Positions 33,034 to 48,051 of a DNA stretch of 64,000 bases are shown piece after piece. The position numbers were made by a program, and so were the translations under genes. The DNA is from Parasporobacterium sp. GTDB lineage: Bacteria > Bacillota > Clostridia > Lachnospirales > Lachnospiraceae. The notes beneath the pieces are model-generated. The model was not told the origin of the DNA. It was given only the letters and a program-made list of their open reading frames with translations, and searched no databases. The stretch spans positions 87,352 to 151,351 of the forward strand of contig JAFUBX010000031.1 in assembly GCA_017459985.1 (NCBI GenBank), in the 5' to 3' direction. Position 1 is the first letter of the stretch. Each line of letters opens with the position of its first letter.

Positions 33034-35253
33034 TTACCTGCACATCAGGTAGATCCTGTTGGCAAGCAATGTATTTCGGATCCCGGTATCCCTGGTCCGT
33101 ATGCACTGCTCTATCGCCTCCCGGTGTCCTGTCAGGATGACTTTTTTCCGTGCCCTTGTCACTGCCGTATACAGAAGGTTCCTGTTATACAGCGGGCACT
33201 GGTAATCCATCAGCAAGGGGATGATCACGGTATCGTATTCACTTCCCTGTGACTTATGGATCGTCAGGGCATAGGCAAGCTCGATGTCGTCCATGTCCTT
33301 GCGCTTATAGCATACCGTCAGCCCGCTCTCAAAGGCGATCCGGAAAACGGTATCTTCTTTTCCGCCATCATCCGTTTCCGAAGTGATCGAAAGCAGATAT
33401 CCTGTCTCGCCGTTGGAAACTGTTTCCGTGTTCCTTGTCTGGATCACCTTATCCCCGGCATAAAATCTTGTGCCATGGCACAGATATCCGGAAGAGGAAG
33501 AGCCGATAATCATCTGCTGGATCTTCCTGTTCAGCTTGCAGGCGCTTACCTCCCCCCACCGGCGGAGCGGCGTAAGGACGACCGTCTGATCCAGGCCTGT
33601 CTCCCTGGCTTCCCGGAAGAAGGCGGACAGGACCGTATCCTGTGCATTCTCTTTCCATGCAGGGAAGAACCGGAAATCAGCCCCATACTTCAGCCTGCCG
33701 TCCCCCTGGTTGATCCGGATGGCATTTTTGATGATCAGGCTGTCTTCATTCTGCCGCATGATCTCCTTCAGCCACACCGTTTTCACTTTCCGTGACCGGA
33801 TCAGTTCTGCAAGTACTGCCCCTGCGCCTACAGAAGCAAGCTGGTTCACGTCCCCCAGAAGGACCAGGGCCGAATTCCCGGTCAGGGAAGACAGCAGCGC
33901 CTGCATGACGAAAAGGTCCACCATGGAAGCCTCGTCTACGATGACCAGCCCCTCGTTCAGCGGTTTCTGGTAATACAGAAAGCCGTTCCCGGTCTGCAGC
34001 TTTAATGCGGAATGGATGGTAAAGGCTTTCTCTCCGGTCGCTTCCGTAAGGCGCCTGGCGGCTTTCCCGGTCGGTGCAAGGAGCGTCACGGACAGGTTCC
34101 GGTGCGCCTTCCGGTACGATCCGATCAGCGCTTTTGCGATGGTCGTTTTCCCGGTGCCGGCGCTCCCTGTGATCACAAGAAGGCTGTTCTCACAGGCGGC
34201 TTCTGCCGCTTCCTTCTGCCCTTCCGTCAGGCAGGTTGCCGGATGGCACTTCTGCCAGTCCTGCAATGCCTCCTGCCATTTCCGGTCCGGATGAGCTTTC
34301 TTAACTAGCTTTGCGGCCGCCTCTGCAACGGCATATTCCGCCTGGTCGTACTCCGGAAGGTAGACGGCATCCAGTTCCCCGGGAAACCGAAGGACCAGGT
34401 CCTCCTTGCCTGCCGTATGAAGGGCGTTACTAACCGCCTCAATTGCAGGAAGGGACAGTGGGTCTGCTTCCTTCAAAAGCTTCATCGTTTCCCTGATGAG
34501 CAGATCTTTTCCGAGGTACACATGCCCGTCCCGGCTGCACAGGGACCTTGCGGCAGCCTTGAGCGCCGCCGTCAGGCGTTCCTTCGAAGTAGGCTCTATG
34601 CCGAGCAGCCTGGCAGCCCTGTCCGCACCGGAAAAGCCGATCCCGGCTGCCTGCATCAGGCAGTACGGATCACGCATGACCTCCAGGGCGCTTTCTTCTC
34701 CCAGGGCCTTATAGGCCTCCATGATCTTTTCCGGGCCGATCCCGGCAGGGCTTAAGAGCGCCTGGAGTTTCTGGTAGCCGATCCTGAGGCCTGCAGACTG
34801 CCGGATCTTTTCCAGCTGGGCCTTTTTGATCCCTTTGACGGAGAGCAGCTTTTCCGGTGCCTGCGTCAGGACATTCAGCGCATCCTCCCCGAAGGCTTCC
34901 AGGATCCTTTCCGCCGTCTTCTTCCCAACGCCCCTGACCGCGCCGGACCGCAGGTAATCTCCGATCTCTTCCAGGGTCTTCGGCATCCGCACCGTATATG
35001 TACGGACCGCGAACTGCTCCCCGTACTTTGTCTGCTTCCAGTTTCCCACCAGGTCCACCGGCACATCCTTCTGCGTGGGGAGGCACGTCCCGGATGCCAT
35101 GAAATAGCAGGTCTTTCCTTTCCGGTTCCGTTCCACCACGGCCTTCGGAAGCCCCTGGAAGGACCGGGACGTATATAAGGATACGCCCCAGCCGCTTCCC
35201 GGGACCTTCGTGATGACCCTGCTGAACGAAACATTCTGCAATGTCATCTCCAT
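33034..35253 (-). CDS. RecD-like (RecD2/TraA type) DNA helicase
   Basis: The 739-residue superfamily 1 helicase has an N-terminal OB-like region, then helix-hairpin-helix repeats (VRGVGKKTAERILEAFGED and LLSVKGIKKAQLEKI). The motor has Walker A ITGSAGTGKTTIAKAL near 355, motif II LVIVDEASMVD, motif III LVLLGDVNQLASVGAGA and the C-terminal LTIHKSQGSEYDTVI. This is the RecD2 arrangement. It would unwind DNA 5' to 3' using ATP. AAAGGAG precedes the ATG by eight bases. It lies three bases after the YqaJ nuclease gene and is the last gene of the erf operon, next to a terminator of the opposite strand. Confidence 0.9.
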   Translation of the reverse strand: MEMTLQNVSFSRVITKVPGSGWGVSLYTSRSFQGLPKAVVERNRKGKTCYFMASGTCLPTQKDVPVDLVGNWKQTKYGEQFAVRTYTVRMPKTLEEIGDYLRSGAVRGVGKKTAERILEAFGEDALNVLTQAPEKLLSVKGIKKAQLEKIRQSAGLRIGYQKLQALLSPAGIGPEKIMEAYKALGEESALEVMRDPYCLMQAAGIGFSGADRAARLLGIEPTSKERLTAALKAAARSLCSRDGHVYLGKDLLIRETMKLLKEADPLSLPAIEAVSNALHTAGKEDLVLRFPGELDAVYLPEYDQAEYAVAEAAAKLVKKAHPDRKWQEALQDWQKCHPATCLTEGQKEAAEAACENSLLVITGSAGTGKTTIAKALIGSYRKAHRNLSVTLLAPTGKAARRLTEATGEKAFTIHSALKLQTGNGFLYYQKPLNEGLVIVDEASMVDLFVMQALLSSLTGNSALVLLGDVNQLASVGAGAVLAELIRSRKVKTVWLKEIMRQNEDSLIIKNAIRINQGDGRLKYGADFRFFPAWKENAQDTVLSAFFREARETGLDQTVVLTPLRRWGEVSACKLNRKIQQMIIGSSSSGYLCHGTRFYAGDKVIQTRNTETVSNGETGYLLSITSETDDGGKEDTVFRIAFESGLTVCYKRKDMDDIELAYALTIHKSQGSEYDTVIIPLLMDYQCPLYNRNLLYTAVTRARKKVILTGHREAIEQCIRTRDTGIRNTLLANRIYLMCR

Positions 35254-35256
35254 AGG

Positions 35257-36330
35257 TTATTCTCCTTTCGCCTTCCTGCATTTCTTCACCCTGACAGTGG
35301 TCTGTTCAAAGGCGGAGACTTTCCTGCACTCCCGGTAGGCTTCGGGATGGGTCATCTTTAGCTTTTCGGAATCCACCGTTGTCCTTGAGGCCACTTTGTT
35401 CACGACTTCATAATATGTCTTTCCGTCGATCGGCCTGACGGCAAGCGGAGCGCCCCTGCTGAGCCGGCAGATCTCTGCCAGCACGGCGTTCAGCTGCTCT
35501 TCCAGTTCCTTCGCTTTCGATTCTGCCTCCTTCTTCTGCAGGGTCAGCTCCTGGTAGGCTGCAAGGACTTCATCTGCTTCCTCCGGCAGGTCCTCCTGTT
35601 CCGTTTCCGGGTCAAAGACCTCTTTCTGGACCCTCTTCAGGTCCTCTTTTTTCATATGCCTTTCTTCCGGCGGGTCCTGTGGCACCACATGCCGGTTCCA
35701 GAAACGGATCTCCATGCCCAGCATCTGCTCTTCAAATAAAAGGTCGCGGTATACCGTGACAGGGATCACCTTGCTGCTGTCAAAGCCGTAGCAGACCAGC
35801 ACGATGAACCGGCTGAGCCCGGTAACGGCCATATAATGGCGCACCTGGTACTCATACTGGGACGGGAGTTTCCCATCCACCCCCAGGATGCCGGCACGGA
35901 AGTGCTCGTTCACATTTATCTCGTCCGTGGTCTTGATCTCGATCCCGACCAGCTCCTTCTCCGGCGTTTCCGCGATGTAATCCATATCGCCCGCCAGGAA
36001 CGGGATCTCGGGGTGCCCCAGCATATAGCTTACGTTCTCCACCTGGTAGCCGGTCACCTTCTGGTACCAGCCTGCGATCAGCGGTTCCAGGGACAGTCCG
36101 CACTGGAATTTGAACCATTTGGAAGTATCTTCCTTTGCTTCCTGCAAAGGCATGGTCTTGTCCAGGTATACGGACAGTTCATTTCCCCAGAGGCAGACGC
36201 CGGCCAGTTTCCCCGCGTCGGTGCCGTTCAGGTATCCTTTCCTGATCTCCAGCCATTTCTCCTTCGGGATGGCTGTATTGTCGCAGATCACCCTGCATCC
36301 GTTTTCCTTTACCAATCTGTCCTGTATCAT
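35257..36330 (-). CDS. YqaJ-like phage recombinase/exonuclease
   Basis: The 357-residue protein has a nuclease core of the YqaJ/lambda-exonuclease type. GTDAGKLAGVCLWGN and QCGLSLEPLIAGWYQKVTGY come first, then the metal-binding PFLAGDMDYI and VGIEIKTTDE. QYEYQVRHYMAVTG completes the site. A coiled-coil-like charged region follows (about 240-290). In phages such a nuclease chews one strand and hands it to an annealing protein. Here the ERF annealing gene is four genes upstream in the same operon, so the pair is probably a recombination system. Confidence 0.88.
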   Translation of the reverse strand: MIQDRLVKENGCRVICDNTAIPKEKWLEIRKGYLNGTDAGKLAGVCLWGNELSVYLDKTMPLQEAKEDTSKWFKFQCGLSLEPLIAGWYQKVTGYQVENVSYMLGHPEIPFLAGDMDYIAETPEKELVGIEIKTTDEINVNEHFRAGILGVDGKLPSQYEYQVRHYMAVTGLSRFIVLVCYGFDSSKVIPVTVYRDLLFEEQMLGMEIRFWNRHVVPQDPPEERHMKKEDLKRVQKEVFDPETEQEDLPEEADEVLAAYQELTLQKKEAESKAKELEEQLNAVLAEICRLSRGAPLAVRPIDGKTYYEVVNKVASRTTVDSEKLKMTHPEAYRECRKVSAFEQTTVRVKKCRKAKGE

Positions 36331-36346: not shown

Positions 36347-36550
36347 TTAATCGCGCAGGTCTATGCCGAACAGGTATCCAAGCACTGCGATCAGCGCATA
36401 GACCCCGGCAAAGAACCCGCAGAACAATACAAGGAACATGACGTTCCTGCAAAAGCTGCCAATCAAAAAGCCCGCAGTGCCTGCGAGCCTGGTTGCCAGT
36501 TTCTTATACTTCCCGGACCGGTCATCGGCCCATGGAGTGGTACTCCGCAT
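36347..36550 (-). CDS. Small membrane protein of the recombination operon
   Basis: The 67-residue protein has two close hydrophobic stretches (AGFLIGSFC and the long VMFLVLFCGFFAGVYALIAV) and a charged N-terminus. The ATG at 36550 is chosen because AAAGGGGG is eight bases upstream; a second ATG nine bases earlier lacks spacing. It overlaps the end of the preceding 90-residue gene by 29 bp. Function unknown; it may anchor a component at the membrane. Confidence 0.55.
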   Translation of the reverse strand: MRSTTPWADDRSGKYKKLATRLAGTAGFLIGSFCRNVMFLVLFCGFFAGVYALIAVLGYLFGIDLRD

Positions 36551-36811: not shown

Positions 36812-37936
36812 TCAGAGCATGCCGCGGCGTTTCTTCTCCAACAGGAAATCATCGATCCCCTTATAGGTCCCGGGCCATGTGAGCACAGTGGTTTCCAGGC
36901 CGGAACTCTGGCAGATCCCGGCGATCCGGGCAAGTGCCCGCTCCACGTTCCGGTTGGTCTGCCAGTCCATGTCCACACAGACATACACGCTTTCGGTCCC
37001 CCTCCGTTTCAGGTCCTCCAGTCCGCTTTTCAGCTGGGCGGTATTGCACACCCCGGTAAGCCCCAGGAACGGGACCCTGCTGAAGGCAGATGCGATATCC
37101 GCTTTCAGGACCCCTTCCGTCAGGCAGACCTTCCTGACCGAGGCTCCTTGATGGAACCCTGCATGGTGGATGTTCTCGCAGCCGGAAACGGATGTCCCCG
37201 TTTTCTTATCCCCGGAGTAGAACCAGGCATATTTTCGGTACACTTCTTTTTCTTTTTCGGATGCTGTCTCCGGCAGGCTGTCATAGCGGATCTGGAGCCC
37301 GGAGATCTGTCCCCGGAGGGTCCTTACCGGCAGTAAAATGCCGGGGGTTCGGTAAACCATTCGTTTCTTTGTTGTTCCATAAAAACCGGGGATCCGGTCC
37401 AGGTCGACACCCCTTTCCTCCAGTGCGGCAGCGATCCTTCCCAGGCCGTGCTGCGGTGTGGAGCGGTACCCCAGCCGGTCGATCACGTCATCCGAAAGCC
37501 CTCTTCTGTGAAGGGCTTCCCTGTGTACGTCCGACAGCGGCAGGACCGCAAGGAGGCTTTGGTAGGCCGCGTTTCTTTTTTTCAGGTCCGCCGCACTTCT
37601 CTTCTCCGGCAGGTCCGCAAGCACCGATTTTCGGACGCTTACTTCTTTCCTGGTCTTCTCGTCCGTATCATGGTAAATGCGGAACAGTTCCCTTGCCGCT
37701 TCTTTCTGGCTGATCTCACGGCACATGGCATACAGTTTTATCATGCCGCCGCCTTCTCCGCATGCCGGACAGTGCCAGGCATCCTTTTTCAGGTTGATAT
37801 TGAGCTTGCGCTTTCGCTGGCAGAACGGGCAGGCGGTATAAAAGCTCTCCCGGTCCGCTGCCCCGGTCCCCTGGGACAGTCCCAGAAGATCCGTTACGAA
37901 CCCGATCCCGAACGGCATCTGATGGCCTGTTTCCAT
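36812..37936 (-). CDS. CHC2 zinc-finger/Toprim DNA primase-like protein
   Basis: The 374-residue protein has an N-terminal zinc finger (CPFCQRKRKLNINLKKDAWH, then CPACGEGGG, near residues 38-63), as in DnaG-type primases. A Toprim-like half follows: VCLTEGVLKADIASAF supplies the Glu and YVCVDMDWQTNRNVERAL the DxD. No helicase domain follows, and the middle is short compared with bacterial DnaG, so it is a plasmid/phage-style primase. It is second in the erf operon, 18 bp after the annealing protein. Confidence 0.85.
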   Translation of the reverse strand: METGHQMPFGIGFVTDLLGLSQGTGAADRESFYTACPFCQRKRKLNINLKKDAWHCPACGEGGGMIKLYAMCREISQKEAARELFRIYHDTDEKTRKEVSVRKSVLADLPEKRSAADLKKRNAAYQSLLAVLPLSDVHREALHRRGLSDDVIDRLGYRSTPQHGLGRIAAALEERGVDLDRIPGFYGTTKKRMVYRTPGILLPVRTLRGQISGLQIRYDSLPETASEKEKEVYRKYAWFYSGDKKTGTSVSGCENIHHAGFHQGASVRKVCLTEGVLKADIASAFSRVPFLGLTGVCNTAQLKSGLEDLKRRGTESVYVCVDMDWQTNRNVERALARIAGICQSSGLETTVLTWPGTYKGIDDFLLEKKRRGML

Positions 37937-37954: not shown

Positions 37955-38722
37955 TTACATGACCCTGCTTTTCAGGATCATATTGGCAGCCAGGGCTTCC
38001 GGGGAATCCGGGCGTACCCTGATATACCATCCCAGTTCCTCCCCGCTCCGCGGTTCTGATGCGATCTGGCCCATGGTCTTCCCATTGTTGCGGCCAAACG
38101 TACAGGTATAATTAAGGGCAGACGGAAGGTCTGCAAAGAAAGGACCCATCGCCACCTGCTGCTGCGGATAAGGCTGCAGCGCCTGTCCTTCACTGGCTGC
38201 CGGATAACCTGCCAGAGTCTGTTCCGGCTGCGGGATCTGCATCGCCGCATACTGCACATCCTGCCGGCTTACGTTCTGCGGCAGAACGGTCTCAAAGCTT
38301 TCCGCATCCGCATCCTTCATTTCCTCTGTCGGGATGCAGAAGGTCTGAAAGCACGCATACTTATATGCCGCGGACATCGCCTTGTTGACAGACTTATCCC
38401 CGGAATCCATGCCTTCCCCTTCCATCACGACTTCGATCCGGCTCCCGTCTTCCACGGCGACAAACCGGTAGCGCATCCTTACATTGCTGAAGGTTATAAC
38501 GCCGCCTTTCGACGTCACCCGGTCTGTCCGCTGGACAGAAAGCACTTCCGGGATCATCACGACACGGTTCCGGATCAGTGCCGGCTGCAGTGCGTTCATG
38601 ACTGCATCGATGCTTCTGTACCTGAAATTCTGGGTCTTGTTCTCAGACTCCTTTCCGATCGCCCCGATCTCTTTCATGACCTGGACGATCCGTTCATAGA
38701 TCAGTTCCTTATTCTGTTCCAT
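37955..38722 (-). CDS. ERF-family single-strand annealing protein
   Basis: The 255-residue protein has an N-terminal ERF domain, with LIYERIVQVMKEIGAIGK and FRYRSIDAVMNALQPALIRN in the first 55 residues. A later SGDKSVNKAMSAAYKYACFQ block is diagnostic. A Gln/Pro-rich linker (about 165-200) leads to a C-terminal TCTFGRNNGKTMGQI segment like that attached to some exonucleases. The ATG at 38722 follows AAAGGAAAGAAG. It is the first gene after the leader RNA with its terminator. It should anneal complementary single strands, together with YqaJ nuclease. Confidence 0.88.
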   Translation of the reverse strand: MEQNKELIYERIVQVMKEIGAIGKESENKTQNFRYRSIDAVMNALQPALIRNRVVMIPEVLSVQRTDRVTSKGGVITFSNVRMRYRFVAVEDGSRIEVVMEGEGMDSGDKSVNKAMSAAYKYACFQTFCIPTEEMKDADAESFETVLPQNVSRQDVQYAAMQIPQPEQTLAGYPAASEGQALQPYPQQQVAMGPFFADLPSALNYTCTFGRNNGKTMGQIASEPRSGEELGWYIRVRPDSPEALAANMILKSRVM

Positions 38723-38778
38723 CTCTTCTTTCCTTTCCCCCTGCACAGGCAGATGCTGCGTCTTATGGGAATGCAAAA

Positions 38779-38941
38779 CAAAAAGACCTGCCCCAAGGCA
38801 GATCCGTTCTTCTTTCATGCTGACGATCAGCATACTCTATCTAAAACACGGCATACAAATAAGACCGTGGTTATTTTCCTTTTCAAACGGGAAATACAAG
38901 CCCCGAAAGGGGTGTAAGTAAATGGGAATGGATGATTGAAT
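38779..38941 (-). ncRNA. Structured leader RNA upstream of erf, copy 1
   Basis: From the predicted start near 38941 the transcript forms hairpin 1 (CCCC/GGGG around TTTC, 38901-38912) and hairpin 2 (CACGG/CCGTG, 38845-38872). Hairpin 3 is ATGCTGA/TCAGCAT (38816-38834), and an intrinsic terminator follows (GATCTGCC with GGCAGGTC, 38785-38804, then five Us). The terminator lies 57 nt before the ERF start. The same order, spacing and sequence blocks recur upstream of ssb (46468-46646), although stem sequences differ. It probably controls readthrough into the recombination genes. Confidence 0.7.
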
Positions 38942-38947
38942 GCTTGG

Positions 38948-38975
38948 ATTATAACAGAGAAAAATGGGAAGTCAA
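38948..38975 (-). promoter_or_regulatory. Near-consensus promoter of the erf operon
   Basis: On the minus strand TTGACT (38975-38970), 16 bases and TATAAT (38953-38948) form a strong housekeeping promoter. It feeds the erf leader. The upstream ssb leader has the same -10, spacer length and position. Confidence 0.75.
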
Positions 38976-39013
38976 GAAAGCCTTATTTGAAAAGCTAAGA
39001 GAATCCTGCTTTA

Positions 39014-39043
39014 TTGACCGGTTCAACTTTTATGTGTTAGTAT
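39014..39043 (+). promoter_or_regulatory. Possible promoter of the acetyltransferase/flavodoxin pair
   Basis: TTGACC at 39014-39019 and TAGTAT at 39038-39043 are separated by 18 bases, about 70 bp before the acetyltransferase start. The fit is moderate. Confidence 0.35.
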
Positions 39044-39111
39044 TTTAGCATAATCGATTCTGAATTATTTGAAGAGATATTAATATTAACCTTTACCGAG
39101 GAAAATAATCG

Positions 39112-39546
39112 ATGATAAGAAATATTCAGATTGAGGATGCACAAGACCTGGAACATATCTGTAAAAAGTCTTTAGGCTATGAAACGACCAGTGAGCTGCT
39201 AAAGCGACGAATAGAGGAGCTATCCAACAATTCAAATTACCGTTTTCTAGTGTACGAAGATGACATAGAACATCAGGTACTGGGTTTTATCCAGGCTGAA
39301 CGGTATAATCTTCTTTATGGAGGTAATGGATGGAATATCATTGCTCTTGCAGTTTTACCGGCTGCGCAGCAGAACGGCATTGGGAAACAACTACTTGCCG
39401 CGATGGAAGATCAGGCAGAGAAAGAAGGATATACGTTCATTCGACTGAACTGTAATACTATCCGCGAGAATGCACATATGTTTTATCAGAGCATGGGTTA
39501 TTCCTGCGACAAAATTCAAAAACGATTTATCAAGATGATTGAATGA
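39112..39546 (+). CDS. GNAT family N-acetyltransferase
   Basis: The 144-residue protein covers a single GNAT domain. IRNIQIEDAQDLEHICKKSL opens it, ALAVLPAAQQNGIGKQLL near 82-99 holds the acetyl-CoA-binding Q-x-x-G-x-G motif, and NAHMFYQSMGY near 125 is the usual end. It transfers an acetyl group to an amine; the acceptor is unknown. GAGGAAAATA precedes the ATG. It is AT-richer than the flanking recombination genes and runs opposite to them, so it looks like inserted cargo. Its stop overlaps the longer frame of the next gene. Confidence 0.85.
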   Translation: MIRNIQIEDAQDLEHICKKSLGYETTSELLKRRIEELSNNSNYRFLVYEDDIEHQVLGFIQAERYNLLYGGNGWNIIALAVLPAAQQNGIGKQLLAAMEDQAEKEGYTFIRLNCNTIRENAHMFYQSMGYSCDKIQKRFIKMIE

Positions 39547-39584
39547 TTAACAAAAAGCAAAAACTACAAACAGGAGAAAATGAG

Positions 39585-40091
39585 ATGAAACTAGCAGTAA
39601 TATATGATTCTAAAACCGGTAATACAAAACAGGCTGCGGAATGGATTATAAAAGGAATGAATGGTGTAGCTGATGTTGAGGCAAAAGCATTTTCTATTCA
39701 TGAAGTTGATCAGGAATTTGTAAAAGAAGTTAAAGGAATTGTGATTGGCTCTCCTTCTTATGCTGCATTGATGACTCCGGATCTTCATGCGTGGCTATTA
39801 CCGGCAGTTGATAAACTTGGCATGGCCGGAAAACTGGGTGGAGCCTTTTCAACGGAACAATATACACAAGGTTGTGGAGATCTTGTTATTCAATCCATTT
39901 TGGCTCGAATGTTAGCTGGCGGTATGGTTTGTTATTCCGGCGGAGCTGGATGTGGGCTTCCATATCTTCATTTGGGCCCTGTCGGAGTAAACTCAAACAT
40001 GGAGAAGCATAATGCGATGGAACATTATAAAGATAATTTCATCGTATACGGAAAACGATTTGCTGAAAAAGCAATAGAGCTGTTTAGATAA
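39585..40091 (+). CDS. Flavodoxin-family protein
   Basis: The 168-residue protein starts MKLAVIYDSKTGNTKQAAEW, the FMN phosphate-binding loop of flavodoxins. GIVIGSPSYAALMTPDLHAW, the WrbA-like aromatic loop, follows near 60. Length fits a single-domain flavodoxin. The ATG at 39585 is chosen for AGGAGAAAA just upstream; the frame is open from 39543. It carries electrons in place of ferredoxin. It follows the acetyltransferase by 38 bp and is closed by a terminator. Confidence 0.85.
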   Translation: MKLAVIYDSKTGNTKQAAEWIIKGMNGVADVEAKAFSIHEVDQEFVKEVKGIVIGSPSYAALMTPDLHAWLLPAVDKLGMAGKLGGAFSTEQYTQGCGDLVIQSILARMLAGGMVCYSGGAGCGLPYLHLGPVGVNSNMEKHNAMEHYKDNFIVYGKRFAEKAIELFR

Positions 40092-40126
40092 TAGGTCTGA
40101 ATTAGAGAATAGAATAATAATTATCA

Positions 40127-40157
40127 AAACATCTGTTAGAGATAACAGGTGTTTTTA
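40127..40157 (+). terminator. Intrinsic terminator after the flavodoxin gene
   Basis: ACATCTGTTA and TAACAGGTGT form a ten-base stem (one wobble pair) around GAGA, followed by TTTTT from 40152. The remaining sequence to 40325 shows no gene. Confidence 0.85.
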
Positions 40158-40325
40158 TTATGCCAAAGGCTCACACCAGAAGTCATGGTATCTTGGAATA
40201 AAGCATATATAGAATTTGAGGCAGACTATCATGAGCTTATATTGCAAGACATGCAAGATAACCCAGGTTGATAACACTACTCTCTCATTGGAGTCTTTAA
40301 ACCCATCCCAAAACTTAGCGTTTAC

Positions 40326-40354
40326 AGAAAAACAGGCTGCACAAAGCAGCCTGT
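40326..40354 (-). terminator. Intrinsic terminator of the ssb-moxR-vWA operon
   Basis: Nine-base perfect arms ACAGGCTGC/GCAGCCTGT with a five-base loop precede a U-run on the minus strand (AAAA at 40328-40331). It lies 26 bp after the DUF5688-like stop. Confidence 0.88.
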
Positions 40355-40379
40355 AATAGTTAGTCCTGATATCAATACC

Positions 40380-41219
40380 TCACCAGATAGATACAATTCC
40401 TGTCCCATCATACAGATAAGCATGGTCGCTCAGCATGTCCCTTTGTTCAACGACATCCGTATTCACGTCGCAGATCATCTGTTTGATGAAAGCAGTATCT
40501 CCTACCGCCTTTATGGCAAGCAGTTCATGGACCGAACTCGGGATCAGGAAGATCTCTTCGGCATGAAGTAATGTCCTTGCTTTTTCCAGGGCATCCCGGT
40601 CCATTAGGGAACCCGCCCCGTAGTGCCGGGCATGGTTGGAAATCAGGACCATCGTTGCTTCTCCAGGCATTTCTCCCATGTCTCCAAAGAACTCGGAAAG
40701 GACCGCGCTCATGGGAAGGACCTCGCTGTTTTCCCTGGTGTTCTGTTTTGCCTTCTCCATCACCAGCTCGGCAGAAAGATCCAGGTCCTTAAGGATCTGC
40801 CTTGTGATCATGACCGAATAAGACTCGTCACAGGCTGCCGGATAAATATAAAGGTCCGTCTCTTCCACCTGTTCGGAAACGGTCTGCTCCAGATATTCCC
40901 GGTTCCAGTCCCCCCGGCATAGACGCACCTGCACATGCTCCAGGATGAACGCTGCATCCAGGAATCGTTTCGGATCTACTTTTGACAGGTCCGTGTCCTT
41001 CAGATGCTCCAATAGGGCATCCACGATACCGGAAATACCGGTATTCTGCCTTTCCAGCTGTTCCAGCATGCTGTCATAGACGATCGGTGCGATCATGTCA
41101 TCCTGCTGCTTTATCACAAGCCCTTGCAGTTTCTCGTTCAGCTTGACGCATTCCACCGCTTCCACTGCAAATCCTCTGTTTAACAGTTCCTCATAAACGT
41201 CATTCATTAATGTTGTCAT
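40380..41219 (-). CDS. DUF5688-like protein of unknown function
   Basis: The 279-residue protein has no signal peptide, membrane segment or catalytic motif that I recognise. The N-terminus is acidic and helical; PMSAVLSEFFGDMGEMPGE and EIFLIPSSVHELLAIKAVGD in the last third resemble what I recall of DUF5688 proteins, which are common in Lachnospiraceae mobile DNA. It follows the phosphatase gene by 61 bp, including a hairpin with a GAAA loop at 41255-41270, and it is the last gene of the operon before a strong terminator. The family name is from memory and its function is not known to me. Confidence 0.6.
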   Translation of the reverse strand: MTTLMNDVYEELLNRGFAVEAVECVKLNEKLQGLVIKQQDDMIAPIVYDSMLEQLERQNTGISGIVDALLEHLKDTDLSKVDPKRFLDAAFILEHVQVRLCRGDWNREYLEQTVSEQVEETDLYIYPAACDESYSVMITRQILKDLDLSAELVMEKAKQNTRENSEVLPMSAVLSEFFGDMGEMPGEATMVLISNHARHYGAGSLMDRDALEKARTLLHAEEIFLIPSSVHELLAIKAVGDTAFIKQMICDVNTDVVEQRDMLSDHAYLYDGTGIVSIW

Positions 41220-41254
41220 ATTCGTTTTCTCCTTTTTCCAATTGGATTCTTTTC

Positions 41255-41270
41255 AGCAGGTTTCCCTGCT
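41255..41270 (-). promoter_or_regulatory. Intercistronic hairpin with GAAA loop
   Basis: AGCAGG/CCTGCT closes a GAAA tetraloop in the transcript, between the phosphatase stop and the ribosome site of the DUF5688-like gene. There is no U-run, so RNA processing or stability is more likely than termination. Confidence 0.4.
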
Positions 41271-41280
41271 CTTTTTGTTC

Positions 41281-41979
41281 TCATGCGATCCCGAGCCTTT
41301 GCAGGATCTTTCCGGTCCCGAAATGGAACCGGTCATCCTTCAAAAACTGCACGATCTCGCTTCTTTCTTTTTCTGCTTTAAGGGAGCTGTCCCCTGTCAG
41401 CTGCAGGTAGTCCCTGACCGCCTGCTCATACACACGGAACACAAGGCTGTCAAAGGTCTCCTGATCCAGGTTCCAGCGGCTTCCCATTCCGACAAAGTCC
41501 ATTTTCCCGTCCAGGGTCATTCGCATTCCCTTCCAGGTCCTGCCGATTCCGTTGATGCCGTTCAGGACTTTGACCGAGGTCCCTCCATGCTCTTCCCAGT
41601 CGATCAGGTTTGCCGAATGGTCGTCCAGCAGAAGGTCGTTCCGGTCCAAGTTCCTTCCGAGCCTTTCCATGGCATATTCCGCCTTGCTCATGCCTTCCGG
41701 CACGTAAAACCTGCGGGAGCGTGGAAAGCAGTGTTTTCCATACTGCAGATCCAGCGCACGGTCTTTTCCTTTCCGGGCATCTTTTCCCAAACAGACCGAG
41801 CAGATATAAAGAGGCGCCCTTTCCGCAAGATCCCTGACCAGTGTTTTCATCTGCGGGTATGCGGCAAGGGATTCGTAATACTCCTGCGTATAAAGCCTCC
41901 AGCGGTCCTTTTCTGGCAGCCGTTTCCACGGGAACAGCGTTCCGTCACAGTCAAAAAATAGATTCTTCTTTCTGTTCAT
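41281..41979 (-). CDS. HAD-superfamily phosphatase, 5'(3')-nucleotidase-like
   Basis: The 232-residue protein has HAD motif I as FFDCDGTLFPW at residues 8-18 and motif IV as DLLLDDHSANLIDWE near 128-142. The short cap and the NLIDWEEHGGTSVKVLNG sequence are like 5'(3')-deoxyribonucleotidases, which hydrolyse nucleoside monophosphates. In a replication module it could tune nucleotide pools, as related phage enzymes are thought to do. It starts 28 bp after the vWA gene stop, just past a terminator-like hairpin. Confidence 0.7.
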   Translation of the reverse strand: MNRKKNLFFDCDGTLFPWKRLPEKDRWRLYTQEYYESLAAYPQMKTLVRDLAERAPLYICSVCLGKDARKGKDRALDLQYGKHCFPRSRRFYVPEGMSKAEYAMERLGRNLDRNDLLLDDHSANLIDWEEHGGTSVKVLNGINGIGRTWKGMRMTLDGKMDFVGMGSRWNLDQETFDSLVFRVYEQAVRDYLQLTGDSSLKAEKERSEIVQFLKDDRFHFGTGKILQRLGIA

Positions 41980-41993
41980 GTCCGTTCTCCTGT

Positions 41994-42018
41994 AAAAAAA
42001 AGACGGGTCAGACCCATC
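41994..42018 (-). terminator. Intrinsic terminator overlapping the end of the vWA gene
   Basis: In the transcript GATGGGT pairs with ACCCGTC around CTG, followed by eight Us. The stop codon of the vWA gene lies in the loop. Since the phosphatase gene follows in the same direction only 15 bp later, it is either an attenuator or has a second promoter beyond it. Confidence 0.7.
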
Positions 42019-44008
42019 TTCTCAGACAATACTTCTTAACGAGCTTCGTCAGTTCTTTCGGGAGCAGTTCCAGGTCCTTTACATCCATGGTCCTTTCTTT
42101 CCCGTAGATCCTGACGATGTCGTCATAGCATCCGTTCAGTGCCGCAGCAAAAACGCGGATCCCTTCCTTCTCGATCTCCCGGACCGTCTCCATGGTCTTT
42201 AAGACCGCAGAATGGCCGTTGAACCCTCTGGCAGCCGGAAGCCCGTCGGAGATCACCACCAGGATCTTCTGCGGCTCAGCCCGTCGTTTCAGGGCGTTTG
42301 CGACAAACCGCAGGGCACAGGCATCATGGTTGTTGTTATAGGCCCTGATATCTGCCAGCCGGTAGCGGTCCTGGTCATCGAACGCATCAAATTCCGCATA
42401 CTTATGGATGATCACGTCCAGTTCCTGTTCCCTGTCGGCGGTATCCCCGTAGATGCAGTGCGGTACGGAAAGGCTCCGGAAAATGGCTTCCAGAGCGATC
42501 GCCGTCTTCTTCGCCGTAAGGATCTTATTCCCCTCCATCGACCCGCTTTCGTCGATCCGGATGCCGAAGGCTGCCCTGGGGCTTCCTTCCGGGACCAGTT
42601 CCTTTGTATAGAACCTTCCGTCACTTCGGTAAGCCTGGCGCGTGTCCATCTTCTTCCCAAGGATCTGTCCGGACAGCCTGCCTTCCAGCTGGCGGTCCTT
42701 CCACGCACTGTCTAGCATCCTGACCGTCCGGTCAACCACCGGCTGTACCGAGCGCATCTGCTCCTTATAGGAAGATCTCATGTCTGCCGTGACGAGGACT
42801 TTCCGGCGGACCGAAAGGATCCTGTCCGCAAAGTTGTCCAGCTCCTCCTCTTCCCTGGCGCTTTTCAGCACTTCCAGTTCATCCTGCGCATAACGTTGTG
42901 CGTCCATGGCATCCGGCAGGTCGGATCCGCAGTCCGCATGGAAATACGGGCTTTTGATCTGTTCCTTTCCCACAGCGGTACTGTCCATCCTTCCGGACCG
43001 TCTGGCCTTCTCATCCTGCTTTTCTTTCTGGCTCTTCAAAATGCGAAAGCCCAGTTCTTCTTCCATCCGGGAAGGATCTGCTTCCAGGGTTCCTTCCGGA
43101 CGGTCCAATTCCTGTGGCTGATCAGATCCCTCTTCGGGACCTGCCTGCCGTTTTTCTTTTTCCTCTTCCAGCTGTTCCTGATACTCCGCTTTTATGAGCG
43201 GCAGGATGATGGCTACGATCTTCTTGAACGTTTCCATCCGCATCCGGCTGTCATTCATGCCGCGGATCTTTTTCATCAGTTCCATGATCCTTGCATGATA
43301 GGGAAATGCTTCCCGGAACTCTTTCGGATACCGTTTCTCCAGCCGTTTCGTGCTGTGTTCTTTCTGCACCTGCAGTAGGCATAACGCCTCTACATTCTCA
43401 TACAGAGATCCGGTCCCGAATCCCTCCATCATGATCTGCCACGTCTGGTCTGCCGCCGTTTTTCGGGTAAATTTAAGGCAGATCGCCGGAAGCCCCGCAA
43501 AGGTACGGAGCAGCCGGTATTCGACGTAATCATCCTCCACGATGTTGCGGAACCCGTCGACGGCTTCAAAAGCAAACGCCCGGAACTGGGGCGATCCTTC
43601 TGCAAGGATCTTTTCCACGTCCGGACAGCCCCTGCAGATGCCCTTTTCGAGATCCTCCAGGAACTTCTCCTGCTCGTCCGTATCCGTGAACAGGATATGC
43701 CCGCATTCATGGGCCAGGAGCCCTATGATGGCAAACAGCTTTTCATTCCGTGTCTCCCGGTTCCGGATGAACGGTGCCAGCACATTGACCAGCACCTTCT
43801 GCCCGTCCGTGCAGCCGGTCGTCTCATTATCCTGTGCGACCACCATCAGTTCGATTTTTCCGCCTTTCGAGGCCGATACGACCGCTTTCAGGATCTGGTT
43901 CAGGTATCTTTGGAAGTCCGCCCTCGTAAAAAACTCCTGGTCGGACATCCTTTCCAGTTCTGCGGCTTTTCTCTGCAGCACCACTTTTGGCAGTTCCGTG
44001 TCTTTCAT
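42008..44008 (-). CDS. vWA-domain protein with HExxH metallopeptidase motif (CobT-like)
   Basis: The 666-residue protein has two recognisable parts. Near residue 110 GLLAHECGHILFTD is an HExxH zinc-protease motif, with FRNIVEDDYVEYRLL about 45 residues on as the likely third ligand region. The C-terminal vWA domain has the MIDAS motif IRIDESGSMEGNK near 490 and VVISDGLPAARG. A long charged linker (about 270-345) separates them. The gene overlaps the MoxR-type ATPase by four bases (ATGA), the classical MoxR-vWA pairing in which the ATPase remodels a target through the vWA partner. Homology to the cobalt-chelatase subunit CobT is only in domain plan. Confidence 0.82.
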   Translation of the reverse strand: MKDTELPKVVLQRKAAELERMSDQEFFTRADFQRYLNQILKAVVSASKGGKIELMVVAQDNETTGCTDGQKVLVNVLAPFIRNRETRNEKLFAIIGLLAHECGHILFTDTDEQEKFLEDLEKGICRGCPDVEKILAEGSPQFRAFAFEAVDGFRNIVEDDYVEYRLLRTFAGLPAICLKFTRKTAADQTWQIMMEGFGTGSLYENVEALCLLQVQKEHSTKRLEKRYPKEFREAFPYHARIMELMKKIRGMNDSRMRMETFKKIVAIILPLIKAEYQEQLEEEKEKRQAGPEEGSDQPQELDRPEGTLEADPSRMEEELGFRILKSQKEKQDEKARRSGRMDSTAVGKEQIKSPYFHADCGSDLPDAMDAQRYAQDELEVLKSAREEEELDNFADRILSVRRKVLVTADMRSSYKEQMRSVQPVVDRTVRMLDSAWKDRQLEGRLSGQILGKKMDTRQAYRSDGRFYTKELVPEGSPRAAFGIRIDESGSMEGNKILTAKKTAIALEAIFRSLSVPHCIYGDTADREQELDVIIHKYAEFDAFDDQDRYRLADIRAYNNNHDACALRFVANALKRRAEPQKILVVISDGLPAARGFNGHSAVLKTMETVREIEKEGIRVFAAALNGCYDDIVRIYGKERTMDVKDLELLPKELTKLVKKYCLRRWV

Positions 44009-45681
44009 AGCTCCACCTCCTCCGGCGGAAACTGTGTTTCGACACAGCGCATGATCGCAGGATATTCGCCCGCATCAAACGTCCAGTTCCTGATGATGCT
44101 CTTCTGGGCTACCTTCCAGGCATTCCCGCCGCAGGCAGCTGCCGTTGCCCACCTTATGAGGCTCCTTATGCCGACCACCCCGTCATCGAGGCAGTTTGCC
44201 CTGCAATGGTCCGCGACTTTATGCAGCACGTCGACCATTTTCCTGACTTCGTCTTCCTCCCGGTATCCGGATTCCGCCATGATTCGCTCTATGAGCACAT
44301 GGTCTTCCGGCAGGGAAAACCCGACCGGCATCAGGCGGTCCTTCACCGCCTTGTTCATCGGCCTGCATCCCTCGTAATTTCCGTTGATCGTAAAAAACAG
44401 CACCGCTTCCGGGTGCCGCTTCACGAACCGTCCGGTATTCAGCTGCAGGATGCCCGTCTTATCGAGCAGGGGATTCAGATACCCTAAAGCCCCCTGCTTC
44501 AGGATCAGGTCCGCTTCCGATACTTCGCACCACCAGCCTTTCTCCAGAGCCTGTGTGAGCGGCCCTTCCGTATAGGCAAAGCCGCCGTTTCCGTCCGGCA
44601 CGATCTGCTGGCAGATGTCGTACTTGTCCGTATCGGGGTCCATGCTCTGGTGAAGGAGCGGCTTGTTTGCCAGATAGGCCTGGATCTTGACCGCCTCCGT
44701 TTTGCCTGAACCGGCTTCCCCGACGAACAGGAAATTCCGTTCCGGTGTCGGAAGGGCCGTTGATTTTTGGATCAGCTGCCCGATCCAGTGGTTGTCCTGT
44801 GTGATCTGGTAGGTTTCCGGGATCACAGGGACCAGCAGTTCTTCTTCCGGCGTGAGGCGCCGGTCACTGATGGCATAGATGCCCCTTAACGAGGCGATAT
44901 TCTGCTTCTTTACACGGGAGGTTCTTTTCAGGGAATCCGGGATCACCGCCCCGGTAACAGTCCCGATGATAAAATCCGGCGTAAGTCTTTTCAGGTCTTC
45001 ACCTGTGAGCAGTTCGATCCTGTCCAGACAGGTCCTGATCCCGGATCCCGGATGGTTCTTCTCACAGGCATCCGCATACGTCACACGCGAATACAGATTA
45101 TTCGAAAACCGGAAGGCTTCCTCCAGGCAGCGCCTGGCTTCTTCTTCCGAAGAAGAATCTTTCAGGCTTATCGCCTGTGCTTCCATATAGCTGTCAAAGG
45201 ATTGTTCCGCTTCCCCTGCCGGATCCTGTTTCCCGGCAGATACGATGACTGCCATGAAAAACAATGCCTCATTTCCAAGCAGCGGGATCTCTTTCCGCTC
45301 CCCGTCTGCCTGTAGACGGCATGCCTTGAACCTTCCGGAACTCGGCTGATACAGGACCTGCAGGAGGTCTTTGCCGCTTCCTTCCTTATCCGCTACATCT
45401 GTTAATCCTTCCCCACCAAGCACGGGAAACTCGATGACGCACGCACCGTCAGAGGCCGTCATCACCCCGCCTGTGATCCGTTCTTCTTTCAGAAGGAAGA
45501 TCCTCTGGAGCGCTTCAAGCACGGTCCCCGACAGGGCCATACTCGTCGATGTATTCCCATAGCCCGGGGTATAAACGGACGATGCCTCTATCATTGGCGC
45601 ATGGTCCATCCGGTCGAACGGTGCCAGGTACTTTTCTTTCTGCCATCGCCATGACGACGGCCCGAATAATAATTGTTTCAT
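44005..45681 (-). CDS. MoxR-like AAA+ ATPase with long N-terminal extension
   Basis: The 558-residue protein has an AAA+ core in its second half: Walker A VGEAGSGKTEAVK near 325, a Walker B-like GWWCEVSEADLI, a pre-sensor FFTINGNYEG and an arginine-bearing CRPMNKAVKDRLMPVGF. This is MoxR/CbbQ-like. About 300 N-terminal residues are unfamiliar. The ATG at 45681 follows GGAGG by about ten bases; the frame is open to 45714. Its stop overlaps the vWA gene start. It should act as an ATP-driven remodeller with that partner, within an ssb-led operon. Confidence 0.82.
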   Translation of the reverse strand: MKQLLFGPSSWRWQKEKYLAPFDRMDHAPMIEASSVYTPGYGNTSTSMALSGTVLEALQRIFLLKEERITGGVMTASDGACVIEFPVLGGEGLTDVADKEGSGKDLLQVLYQPSSGRFKACRLQADGERKEIPLLGNEALFFMAVIVSAGKQDPAGEAEQSFDSYMEAQAISLKDSSSEEEARRCLEEAFRFSNNLYSRVTYADACEKNHPGSGIRTCLDRIELLTGEDLKRLTPDFIIGTVTGAVIPDSLKRTSRVKKQNIASLRGIYAISDRRLTPEEELLVPVIPETYQITQDNHWIGQLIQKSTALPTPERNFLFVGEAGSGKTEAVKIQAYLANKPLLHQSMDPDTDKYDICQQIVPDGNGGFAYTEGPLTQALEKGWWCEVSEADLILKQGALGYLNPLLDKTGILQLNTGRFVKRHPEAVLFFTINGNYEGCRPMNKAVKDRLMPVGFSLPEDHVLIERIMAESGYREEDEVRKMVDVLHKVADHCRANCLDDGVVGIRSLIRWATAAACGGNAWKVAQKSIIRNWTFDAGEYPAIMRCVETQFPPEEVEL

Positions 45682-45702
45682 GTCACTCTTTCCTCCTTGG
45701 AA

Positions 45703-45751
45703 ATGGCATTTCATAAAAGCGTGCTATACAGCACGCCTCATGAACCGCCAT
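45703..45751 (-). promoter_or_regulatory. Long hairpin before the AAA+ gene
   Basis: Three nested stems (ATGGC/GCCAT, TTCAT/ATGAA and GCGTGCT/AGCACGC) form one interrupted hairpin that ends 21 nt before the AAA+ start codon. It may affect mRNA stability or translation. It has no U-run. Confidence 0.5.
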
Positions 45752-45772
45752 GTTTTCTTTTCCTTTTGCATC

Positions 45773-45805
45773 AAAAAAGCCCAGAACCATCTTCGATCCT
45801 GAGCT
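45773..45805 (-). terminator. Intrinsic terminator after ssb
   Basis: An eleven-pair stem in the transcript (AGCTCAGGATC with the wobble-containing GATGGTTCTGGGCT side, loop GAAG) is followed by six Us. It lies 30 bp after the ssb stop and before the AAA+ gene, so it would limit transcription into the rest of the operon. Confidence 0.75.
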
Positions 45806-45834
45806 TGCATCATGAATGCCGTTTGCATTTTCTT

Positions 45835-46413
45835 TTAGTGGATAAACCCCTTTTCATTGGGATTCAGGAATGTGACCGGTACCTGTCCCTGTGAAGGCAG
45901 GAACCCCTGCTGGGGCACAAATCCTGCCTGCGGAGGCTGCTGATACCCGGGCTGCCCCGGATAGTATCCCGGCTGGGCTGCCTGCGGATAGGACTGCTGT
46001 CCCTGCGGCAGCTCATTCTGCATGGGCTTCTGGTACCCTTGCTGTCCCTGTGTAGGAACCTGCCCCTGTCCTTCGTGGCTTTCCTTCTTGCTTTCACAGA
46101 ATGTGAACTCTTCGACGATCACCTCTGTCCTGTAGACCTTTGTGCCGTCCTCTTTTTCATAGGATCCTGACTGCAGGGATCCTTCGACAGCGATCTTCGT
46201 TCCTTTCCGGACGTGATCCCTGATGCACTCCGCTGTTTTGCCGAATGCGGTGCAGCCAATAAAATCGGCTTTCTTCTCTTCCTCCTTCCTCGTCTTCCGG
46301 TCAACCGCCAGACGGAATCTGGCGATGCATAAAGGATTGTCGCCCTGTGAGTACTTCACCTCCGGGTCTGCTGCTAATCTCCCGATCAGGAAGATACTGT
46401 TGTTAACTGACAT
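45835..46413 (-). CDS. ssb: Single-stranded DNA-binding protein
   Basis: The 192-residue protein has an N-terminal OB fold: NSIFLIGRLAADPEVKYS, CIARFRLAVDR, ADFIGCTAFGKTAECI and GTKIAVEGSLQSGSYEKEDG. This is classical SSB. The C-terminal half is Gln/Gly/Pro-rich and disordered. The tail ends in LNPNEKGFIH instead of the acidic DDDIPF peptide through which host SSBs recruit partners, so it is an element-type SSB. AAGGAA precedes the ATG at 46413; the longer frame to 46524 runs through the leader. It follows the second structured leader RNA. Confidence 0.93.
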   Translation of the reverse strand: MSVNNSIFLIGRLAADPEVKYSQGDNPLCIARFRLAVDRKTRKEEEKKADFIGCTAFGKTAECIRDHVRKGTKIAVEGSLQSGSYEKEDGTKVYRTEVIVEEFTFCESKKESHEGQGQVPTQGQQGYQKPMQNELPQGQQSYPQAAQPGYYPGQPGYQQPPQAGFVPQQGFLPSQGQVPVTFLNPNEKGFIH

Positions 46414-46467
46414 AAGTTCCTTCTTTCTCCTACACTTCGCAGTAGGCGCAAAAATAGTTAGTAACAC

Positions 46468-46646
46468 AAAAAACACCTGCCGATTGGCAAGTATCTGGTT
46501 GCATTTTTCATGATGCCTGATCAAGCGGCATCATGTACGTTCAATCACATGGCAGCAAAAAAAGCCATGCTGCGTTTTCTTTTTTCAAACGAGAATTACA
46601 TGCCCTGAACAGGGCCGTAAATGAATGGGAATGGGTGAAAAATAAT
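46468..46646 (-). ncRNA. Structured leader RNA upstream of ssb, copy 2
   Basis: Same plan as the erf leader: hairpin 1 GCCCTG/CAGGGC (46602-46615), hairpin 2 CATGGC/GCCATG (46548-46569), hairpin 3 CATGATGCC/GGCATCATG (46509-46535). A terminator follows (46474-46493, CACUUGCC-type stem) with six Us at 46473-46468, 55 nt before ssb. The blocks CCATTCCCATT and TCGTTTGAAAA before and after hairpin 1 are nearly identical in both leaders, while stem sequences differ but still pair. That supports a conserved RNA fold. Confidence 0.7.
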
Positions 46647-46652
46647 ACTGGA

Positions 46653-46680
46653 ATTATAGCAAATGGATATTAATTGTCAA
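46653..46680 (-). promoter_or_regulatory. Consensus promoter of the ssb operon
   Basis: TTGACA (46680-46675), 16 bases and TATAAT (46658-46653) on the minus strand match the housekeeping consensus exactly. The spacing equals that of the erf promoter at 38948-38975. Confidence 0.82.
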
Positions 46681-46995: not shown

Positions 46996-48051
46996 TGTAA
47001 GGTGATAAAACATATGTTACAGAAATAGATAATAAAAGAGAGTCTCTATGATACAATAGGGTTCGACCAAAAATCCAACGTATCAGAAAGGAGAGCTCTC
47101 TTTGAAAGAGATTATAACAGAAGAAATGCGATACCGCCAGCGCTTATGTGAATACGCATTGAAACATGGCGTAAGCAAGGCAGCAAGAAGATACCATACC
47201 TACCGGCAATTCGTTTACCGGCAGCTGGAAAGATATGACGGAACAGCAAAAAGCCTGGCCCTGCGCTCCCGTAAGCCGCTCCACAGCCCTAATGCACATA
47301 CGGAAGAAGAACTCAGGCTGATCCGGAAGATGTTGAAACGGAATGGGAAATACGGACTGGCTGAAGTATATGTCAGATGCCGGAACAGAGGATACCTGAG
47401 ATGTTTCGAAAGTATGTGCCGGGTGATCCGCCGGAAAGGGTACCGGAAGCCGGTCCGGCACCGGAAGCACTATACAAGATATGAGCATCTGGAAGGAAGG
47501 TTCCCCGGGGACAAAGTACAGGTAGATATCAAGTACATCCCGGACAGCTGTATCCGTTTCCCGACTTACGGGGATAAATACTATCAGATCACCGGGATCG
47601 ATGAATACAGCCGCAGAAGGATCCTGAAAGTCGTCAATGAGAAAAGCACCTATGAAACGGCGAAGTATTTAAAAGAACTGGAGATGCGCATGGGATTCAG
47701 GATCCGGACCGTACAGGTCGATAATGGCAGTGAGTTTGTGCACGATGAAGAAAGGACGGACCGTGCCACGTCCTTTGAAGAAGCCGCCAGGGATCTGGGG
47801 ATCGAACTGAGGAGGACAAGGCCGTATTCCCCATGGCAGAACGGAAAAGTTGAGCGCAGCCACCGGGAGGATGGGAAGATCCTGTACGACAGGCAGGTGT
47901 TCTTCAGCAGACAGGAGATGCTCCGCCAGGTTGCGAAGCATGAAAGGCGCTATAATAAAACGGCAAAGAGGGTACTTGGTTTCAAAAGTCCGAATCAGAT
48001 GGTATCAGAGTATTTCTCGAATAGCTGTAACATATGTGTTGACACATAAGA
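46996..48051 (+). mobile_element. Insertion sequence, 1056 bp, long target duplication (IS1202-like?)
   Basis: The ends form an imperfect inverted repeat that contains the perfect block ACATATGTTACAG on both sides and reads TGT at the left tip and, reversed, TCT at the right. One transposase gene fills it. It is flanked by an exact 26-bp direct repeat. Most DDE-type elements duplicate 2-15 bp. Duplications of about 24-29 bp are known for the IS1202 family, so that family, or an IS481-like relative, is the best guess. The element looks intact. Confidence 0.85.
47102..48049 (+). CDS. DDE transposase (IS481/IS1202-like integrase core)
   Basis: The 315-residue protein has a short N-terminal helix-turn-helix (ALKHGVSKAARRYHTYRQFV) and an rve-type integrase core. 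DKVQVDIKYIPD near 140 gives the first Asp, TVQVDNGSEFV near 203 the second and PYSPWQNGKVERSHREDGKI near 242 the Glu. AAAGGAG lies eight bases before the TTG start at 47102. It cuts and joins the ends of the surrounding element. It is shorter than the IS1202 founder transposase as I remember it. Confidence 0.88.
   Translation: MKEIITEEMRYRQRLCEYALKHGVSKAARRYHTYRQFVYRQLERYDGTAKSLALRSRKPLHSPNAHTEEELRLIRKMLKRNGKYGLAEVYVRCRNRGYLRCFESMCRVIRRKGYRKPVRHRKHYTRYEHLEGRFPGDKVQVDIKYIPDSCIRFPTYGDKYYQITGIDEYSRRRILKVVNEKSTYETAKYLKELEMRMGFRIRTVQVDNGSEFVHDEERTDRATSFEEAARDLGIELRRTRPYSPWQNGKVERSHREDGKILYDRQVFFSRQEMLRQVAKHERRYNKTAKRVLGFKSPNQMVSEYFSNSCNICVDT

Follow-up and report, generated by a model that had tools for sequence, protein, structure and literature searches.

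How two operons of DNA-processing genes that lie apart on one bacterial contig might be brought under common control is the question raised by a stretch of 64,000 nucleotides from a Parasporobacterium sp. genome (Lachnospiraceae; GenBank assembly GCA_017459985.1, contig JAFUBX010000031.1, positions 87,352 to 151,351), which we refer to in full as the window. One operon begins with a gene for a single-strand DNA-binding protein (SSB) and the other with a gene for an ERF single-strand annealing protein. A preliminary description of this DNA had proposed that the two share a structured leader RNA that ends in a terminator. We find that both leaders are real, that they follow one design, and that they lie on the minus strand where that description had placed them, each 5' of its operon (ssb leader, 46680-46467; erf leader, 38975-38775). 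Their parts are as follows.

46653..46680, minus strand, ssb promoter, TTGACA-N16-TATAAT with an extended -10 element; sigma-70 consensus 12/12
46582..46634, minus strand, ssb leader core: block 1 (46634-46617), hairpin 1 (46620-46596) and block 2 (46595-46582)
46548..46569, minus strand, ssb leader hairpin 2
46510..46534, minus strand, ssb leader hairpin 3
46467..46496, minus strand, ssb leader intrinsic terminator, ending 53 nt 5' of the SSB start codon
38948..38975, minus strand, erf promoter, TTGACT-N16-TATAAT with an extended -10 element; sigma-70 consensus 11/12
38880..38931, minus strand, erf leader core: block 1 (38931-38914), hairpin 1 (38917-38895) and block 2 (38893-38880); 82% identity to the ssb core
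38847..38869, minus strand, erf leader hairpin 2
38817..38833, minus strand, erf leader hairpin 3
38775..38805, minus strand, erf leader intrinsic terminator, ending 52 nt 5' of the ERF start codon

The promoters are near-consensus with a 16-base spacer, as had been described, and in both of them TG precedes the -10 element. From its promoter-proximal end to its terminator each leader spans about 170-190 nt. A terminator does stand 5' of each gene; the distance, earlier given as 55-57 nt, is corrected to 52-53 nt before the ATG. When the 64 kb were scanned for a strong promoter followed by a terminator and a gene, the erf and ssb leaders were the only two matches, and the reversed window gave none.

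The two leaders have in common a 57-nt core that is 82% identical by blastn (E 4e-9; the leader-leader match within the bacterium's own genome has an E of 2e-8), which bears out the claim that near-identical blocks surround hairpin 1. This hairpin is flanked in both leaders by CCATTCCCATT[C/T]A[C/T]TTAC and TTC[C/T]CGTTTGAAAA. With at most one mismatch allowed, TTCYCGTTTGAAAA occurs twice in the window against a mean of 0.03 in shuffled sequence, and two occurrences were reached in none of 100 shuffles. Outside the core most of the sequence has diverged. Stems that differ yet still pair had also been reported, and we see them: in helices cut by hand, both sides of a pair had changed with pairing kept at one of five pairs in hairpin 2, two of seven in hairpin 3 and one of eight in the terminator (4/20 in total), and RNAalifold, on its own alignment of the two leaders, counts 2 of 24 pairs changed on both sides. 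The ssb leader also folds better than its shuffles (z -3.0; 3/200 as good). We note that a reading frame starting at an ATG in erf-leader hairpin 3 continues through the terminator, in frame, into ERF (window 38833-38722; 292 vs 255 aa); no ribosome site for it is visible by eye.

From the sequence of the two leaders and their operons we propose that both operons are under processive antitermination rather than ligand attenuation, a reading whose chance of being right we put at about even. On this proposal each operon would have a strong promoter from which the first 170-190 nt transcribed would fold as a leader ending in an intrinsic terminator, and the 5' core common to both leaders (block 1, hairpin 1 and block 2) would act in cis, as RNA, on the polymerase that made it, whether unaided or together with a protein of the host or of the element. 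Polymerase acted on by the core would pass the leader terminator as well as the inner terminators of the operon, whereas polymerases from host promoters, being without core RNA, would stop; two copies of one core would then give common control of both operons. Integrative elements must silence their DNA-processing genes while in the chromosome and then turn on several operons together. Read-through caused by the RNA, and its processivity, are what we infer here; the leaders lie between promoter and terminators and have more terminators downstream, which is the placement of processive antitermination RNAs of the put, canT and EAR type. The terminators within the operons are these.

45773..45806, minus strand, terminator between ssb and the ATPase gene
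41994..42020, minus strand, terminator overlapping the end of the CobT-like gene; counts as coding when coding sequence is masked
36465..36490, minus strand, terminator within the erf operon, 5' of the exonuclease gene

The list of promoter-like sites holds none on the minus strand in the gaps at 45806-45773, 42020-41994 and 36490-36465. A terminator lies directly 3' of ssb in all five ssb-led operons examined (those of the window and of genomes G035, G104, G163 and G341), and the post-ssb terminators of G104 and G163 are nearly identical. Across the non-coding stretches of 13 operons, terminators number 15 in the sense orientation against 3 in antisense (p 0.0075). Antitermination had been one option for the RNA switch suggested in the preliminary description, and it gains support because terminators occur further down the operons. 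A hairpin that competes with the terminator did not emerge: of the 10 leaders compared, none has an upstream segment whose pairing with the terminator arm exceeds that in 95% of shuffles, the closest being that of locus L133 (28/300). The latter result also bears on attenuation of the first gene only, in which a metabolite, ion, tRNA or protein on the leader would set its terminator and the inner terminators would be unrelated. An attenuator has the same anatomy, with a structured leader and a terminator set between promoter and gene, and a three- or four-way junction present in the leaders of related elements (see below) could serve as a binding pocket; the operons, however, have DNA-processing genes in common and no pathway with an obvious ligand, and together with the missing antiterminator-like pairing this makes attenuation, to our mind, unlikely.

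What is new here is that the design recurs in distant relatives, often twice per element, and its reach is therefore wider than first noted. Proteins related to the window's primase, exonuclease, RecD, ATPase and VWA proteins, at about 20-40% identity, are encoded together in other genomes, and several of their operons open with a promoter of the extended -10 kind, followed by a leader and between one and three terminators, in sequences unlike those of the window. These leaders precede an ssb operon or an exonuclease/RecD/primase operon. In G104 the leaders of the exonuclease operon and of an SSB-like gene, about 13 kb apart, are 76% identical over 135 nt. A second leader type, sought by pattern, gave 13 matches in 7 of 299 genomes of the family (reversed pattern, 0/299); six of the seven genomes have two copies, which in five lie on the same contig in opposite orientation, 39-51 kb apart. 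Genomes G191, G232 and G102 are not independent of one another, because their leaders are identical. Leaders of a third type occur twice in L046, 5' of an LPD28 gene and of a DUF5688 gene; they occupy 618-796 and 3434-3613, 2.8 kb apart, with the terminator stem AGTAAGAYATCAGAAA, and part of their motif is present at L120 17186-17048. The scan for promoter, terminator and gene gave 14 matches in 12 of 16 related loci (291 kb), loci that had been picked after leaders or relatives had been seen in them, and one of these matches (L044, 13649) resembles coding sequence; it gave none in the 16 loci reversed and none in 10 control loci (79 kb). The region in G035 fits an integrative element, since it has a tyrosine integrase near a tRNA gene together with actin-like, YodL and sortase-domain proteins.

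Within an element the twin leaders resemble each other, while leaders of different elements diverge, as would fit a matching factor; the differences between elements would reflect either such a factor or a contact with polymerase. With somewhat less than even confidence, we suggest that these RNAs form a class of antitermination leaders in Clostridia that is new to description and specific to the integrative element: each element would carry at least two copies of its own leader version to license polymerase for its DNA-processing operons, distant operons would form one regulon via RNA, with or without the help of a matching protein from the element, and the window would hold a divergent version. 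With twin leaders this short, a covariance model for them and examples from many elements, the suspected wider use of antitermination would become testable by a simple reporter. Alternatively, the leaders could mediate feedback: SSB made by the element, or some other protein that binds single strands, would attach to leader RNA and thereby govern termination or translation in both operons. One twin directly precedes ssb in the window and in L130, L133 and L136, and some phage single-strand binding proteins regulate their own messages. The other twin, however, heads genes other than ssb, the leaders are strongly different between elements, and SSB binds with little sequence preference, so we think feedback of this kind improbable.

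The relatives' leaders also allow pairing to be compared over more than two sequences. MAFFT misaligned ssb-type against exonuclease-type leaders inside the junction, and hand-cut helices and a model-fitted alignment were then used. In nine relatives' leaders, aligned to fit the model structure and hence leaning towards it, 88.2% of cells pair against 74.0% in shuffles, and 16 pairs have changed on both sides against 8.1, values reached in none of 500 shuffles; slid structures pair at 29-49%. By helix, pairing is 95% in the terminator, 100% in stem 3 (few letters), 83% in stem 2 and 71% in the basal helix, the last of which, when cut by hand (TGTGTC/GACACA, TGTGCT/AGCATA, TTATGC/GCATAA), shows change on both sides at five of six pairs. 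The leaders form a three- or four-way junction, and in two types the base of the terminator is a fixed GTGTCA/TGGCAC. Covariation, which the preliminary description had wanted to see in homologues, is present in the leaders of these relatives; close homologues of the window pair were not found in the searches given below. Pairing kept through changes, in the window pair as in the relatives, argues against control at the level of DNA, by which the blocks, lying no more than about 75 bp from the promoters, would serve as operators for a repressor and hairpin formation would be incidental. Near-identical blocks near promoters are what such operators would look like, but the letters of the blocks are not preserved in the relatives, and we consider this explanation very improbable.

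The relatives' leader RNAs are represented by two covariance models, R1 and R3. R3 finds leaders outside its alignment in L130, L131, L132, L122, L044 and L041 (E 6e-4 to 0.02), as well as L133, L038 and L040, whose sequences had served for training at an earlier stage or are nearly identical to ones that had; at E 1 it finds nothing in the 10 control loci or in 20 further loci, including the third-type L046 and L120. In pMM35_02 of Vescimonas fastidiosa, R3 has a match (E 4e-4) between an excisionase gene and exonuclease-RecD-DUF3854 genes, the one leader seen there in a search of the record outside its 72-121 kb stretch. When pLS20, pMM35_02 and pCY186 were scanned strictly for a promoter and a terminator, nothing came up, even at this R3 match. 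R1, run at E 0.001 with strict filters on 148 genomes of the class, gave no match, which shows little because G418, with its L123-type leader, was among them; the relatives' leader motif had no match in viral contigs. In the unfiltered 64 kb, R3 ranks the ssb leader best of three matches (17.8 bits, E 1), aligned from the transcription start, and in 16 kb R1 has both window leaders among five matches (at E 3.7 and 5.1), ranked under a match that is not a leader. In place of the relatives' junction the leaders of the window carry hairpins 2 and 3, and their operons have the relatives' arrangement of promoter, leader and terminator before an ssb or an exonuclease/RecD/primase operon.

Several of our results weigh against processive antitermination. 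The R3 match of the ssb leader suggests, but does not establish, that the window leaders belong to the relatives' family: the R3 matches in the 64 kb do not include the erf leader. Overall, the erf leader is no better folded than shuffles (z -0.86; 40/200 as good). Neither an antitermination protein nor a matching factor was found, and the operons are short (about 6 kb each for erf and ssb). The 15 sense terminators comprise 8 between genes, 3 extra ones in leaders and 4 at operon ends, and two of the 13 operons have none; when whole operons are counted with their coding sequence, the excess is weak (21 sense vs 16 antisense).

Copies of one RNA site head two operons in lambdoid phages, as putL/putR and nutL/nutR. 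The put RNA of HK022, an element repeated near the promoter at the heads of two operons, resembles the window leaders in this; it is of other sequence and from another host group, and is likened to them by arrangement alone. Antitermination by the canT RNA of Tn916 was reported in 2024, and the authors of that report suspect similar mechanisms in other such elements and mention HK022 put (PMC11658703). By that description canT, too, is a structured RNA of an integrative element that lies between a promoter and a terminator blocking DNA-processing genes, with more terminators downstream; it is one site, used as a 452-nt fragment, whereas the window has two leaders of about 170-190 nt heading two operons. 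The same source describes an insulating terminator in Tn916 (PMC11658703), which lends something to the possibility that the leader terminators of the window merely lower expression or block host transcription, with constitutive read-through and with the core a relic of duplication. Divergence of the leaders apart from the 57-nt core would suit such a relic. Against it, the terminators follow a strong promoter that belongs to the element itself, the core retains 82% identity whereas the adjoining stems change yet pair, and the design recurs in unrelated sequence; we accordingly give insulation a low probability. Antitermination in the conAn system of pLS20 uses an RNA and a small protein, and it takes place at the head of a mobile-element operon that has terminators inside it (PMC8955417). 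That system depends on the small protein, ConAn1, and controls a single operon of >30 kb, whereas the window operons are about 6 kb and begin with ssb or erf; the first genes being SSB and ERF, the protein feature of conAn is absent here. In 50 kb of the 65.8-kb pLS20 record R2, a covariance model of the window leaders, has no match at E 1; R3 has five candidate matches (E 0.02 to 3.3) in pLS20.

Searches with the window leaders themselves returned little beyond the genome of origin. Rfam 15 has no match in the window at gathering score, in agreement with the statement that no named RNA family applies, and at E up to 5 only weak, chance-level matches far below that score. Only the own genome matched the leader pattern among 299 genomes of the family or the leaders by blastn among 14 of the genus, and the ssb leader as query had no match in plasmid and phage collections. 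Stretches fitting the exact pattern in viral contigs (1 and 3) and in genome contigs (11, from 84,980 species) were judged chance on reading the sequences, and a third pattern match in the own genome reads as coding sequence. R2 has two matches in the own genome; in 13 other genomes of the genus it has two weak ones (E 0.54 and 0.76), both without the arrangement of promoter, leader and terminator, and in 40 loci besides the window it has nothing under E 0.79 and does not find the relatives' leaders. Protein scans gave no close relatives of ERF (genome and viral contigs) or of the ATPase (viral contigs). No description of these leaders turned up in the literature searched; one study reports 28 RNAs as structured candidates located near domains of integrases, sortases or phages (PMC8040213), and an overlap with our leaders is possible.

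The genes of the two operons are as follows.

45835..46413, minus strand, SSB; first gene of the ssb operon
44005..45714, minus strand, CobS/MoxR-like AAA ATPase
42008..44008, minus strand, CobT-like protein with a VWA domain
41281-41979, minus strand, HAD-like protein (PHROG deoxyribonucleotidase, E 3e-6); ssb operon
40380-41219, minus strand, DUF5688 protein; with the HAD-like gene, the last genes of the ssb operon (40380..41979)
37955..38722, minus strand, ERF single-strand annealing protein; first gene of the erf operon (Pfam ERF E 1e-21 for the longer open reading frame; PHROG Erf-like)
36812..37936, minus strand, DnaG-like primase with DUF3854
35257..36330, minus strand, YqaJ/RecE-like exonuclease
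33034..35253, minus strand, RecD2-type helicase

These clusters for DNA copying and repair probably come from a mobile element. GC content is 55-58% at 34-38 kb and 42-46 kb, against 37-51% in the remaining 2-kb bins. Beside the operons we recognised neither an integrase gene nor a transfer gene, and the ssb side is bordered by transporter genes. Between the operons lie two ordinary-looking plus-strand genes (39112-40091), judged by sequence a putative acetyltransferase and a putative flavodoxin; with these in between, the operons may be one element or two inserts. The flavodoxin-like gene, sought for an empty site around the operons, is present in 2 of 14 genomes of the genus, the own included, and its relative in the one of 13 other genomes sits at a contig edge.

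Further observations concern the surroundings of the leaders. A transposase gene with an rve integrase core (47102-48049) lies shortly upstream of the ssb promoter, and the primase (36812-37936) has a match (E 5e-15) to RTasDnaG-like, which in PADLOC models a component of defence systems with reverse transcriptases. Among the related loci, L053 15512-15354 and L056 3828-3982 are more leaders of the relatives' RNA family, with a second long terminator 5' of the exonuclease operon, and at L060 2758-2499 the primase (DUF3854) gene has a leader of its own with two terminator-like sites, in sequence unlike the other leaders. An Rfam pemK RNA (L037 4569-4506) lies in the same stretch as a leader-bearing element, and an Rfam azaaromatic (yjdF) riboswitch (L133 2069-2194) lies near the G035 ssb operon. 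In pMM35_02 a gene annotated as the Cas9 inhibitor AcrIIA9 (L165 11768-12616) stands in the same run as the exonuclease, RecD and primase genes.

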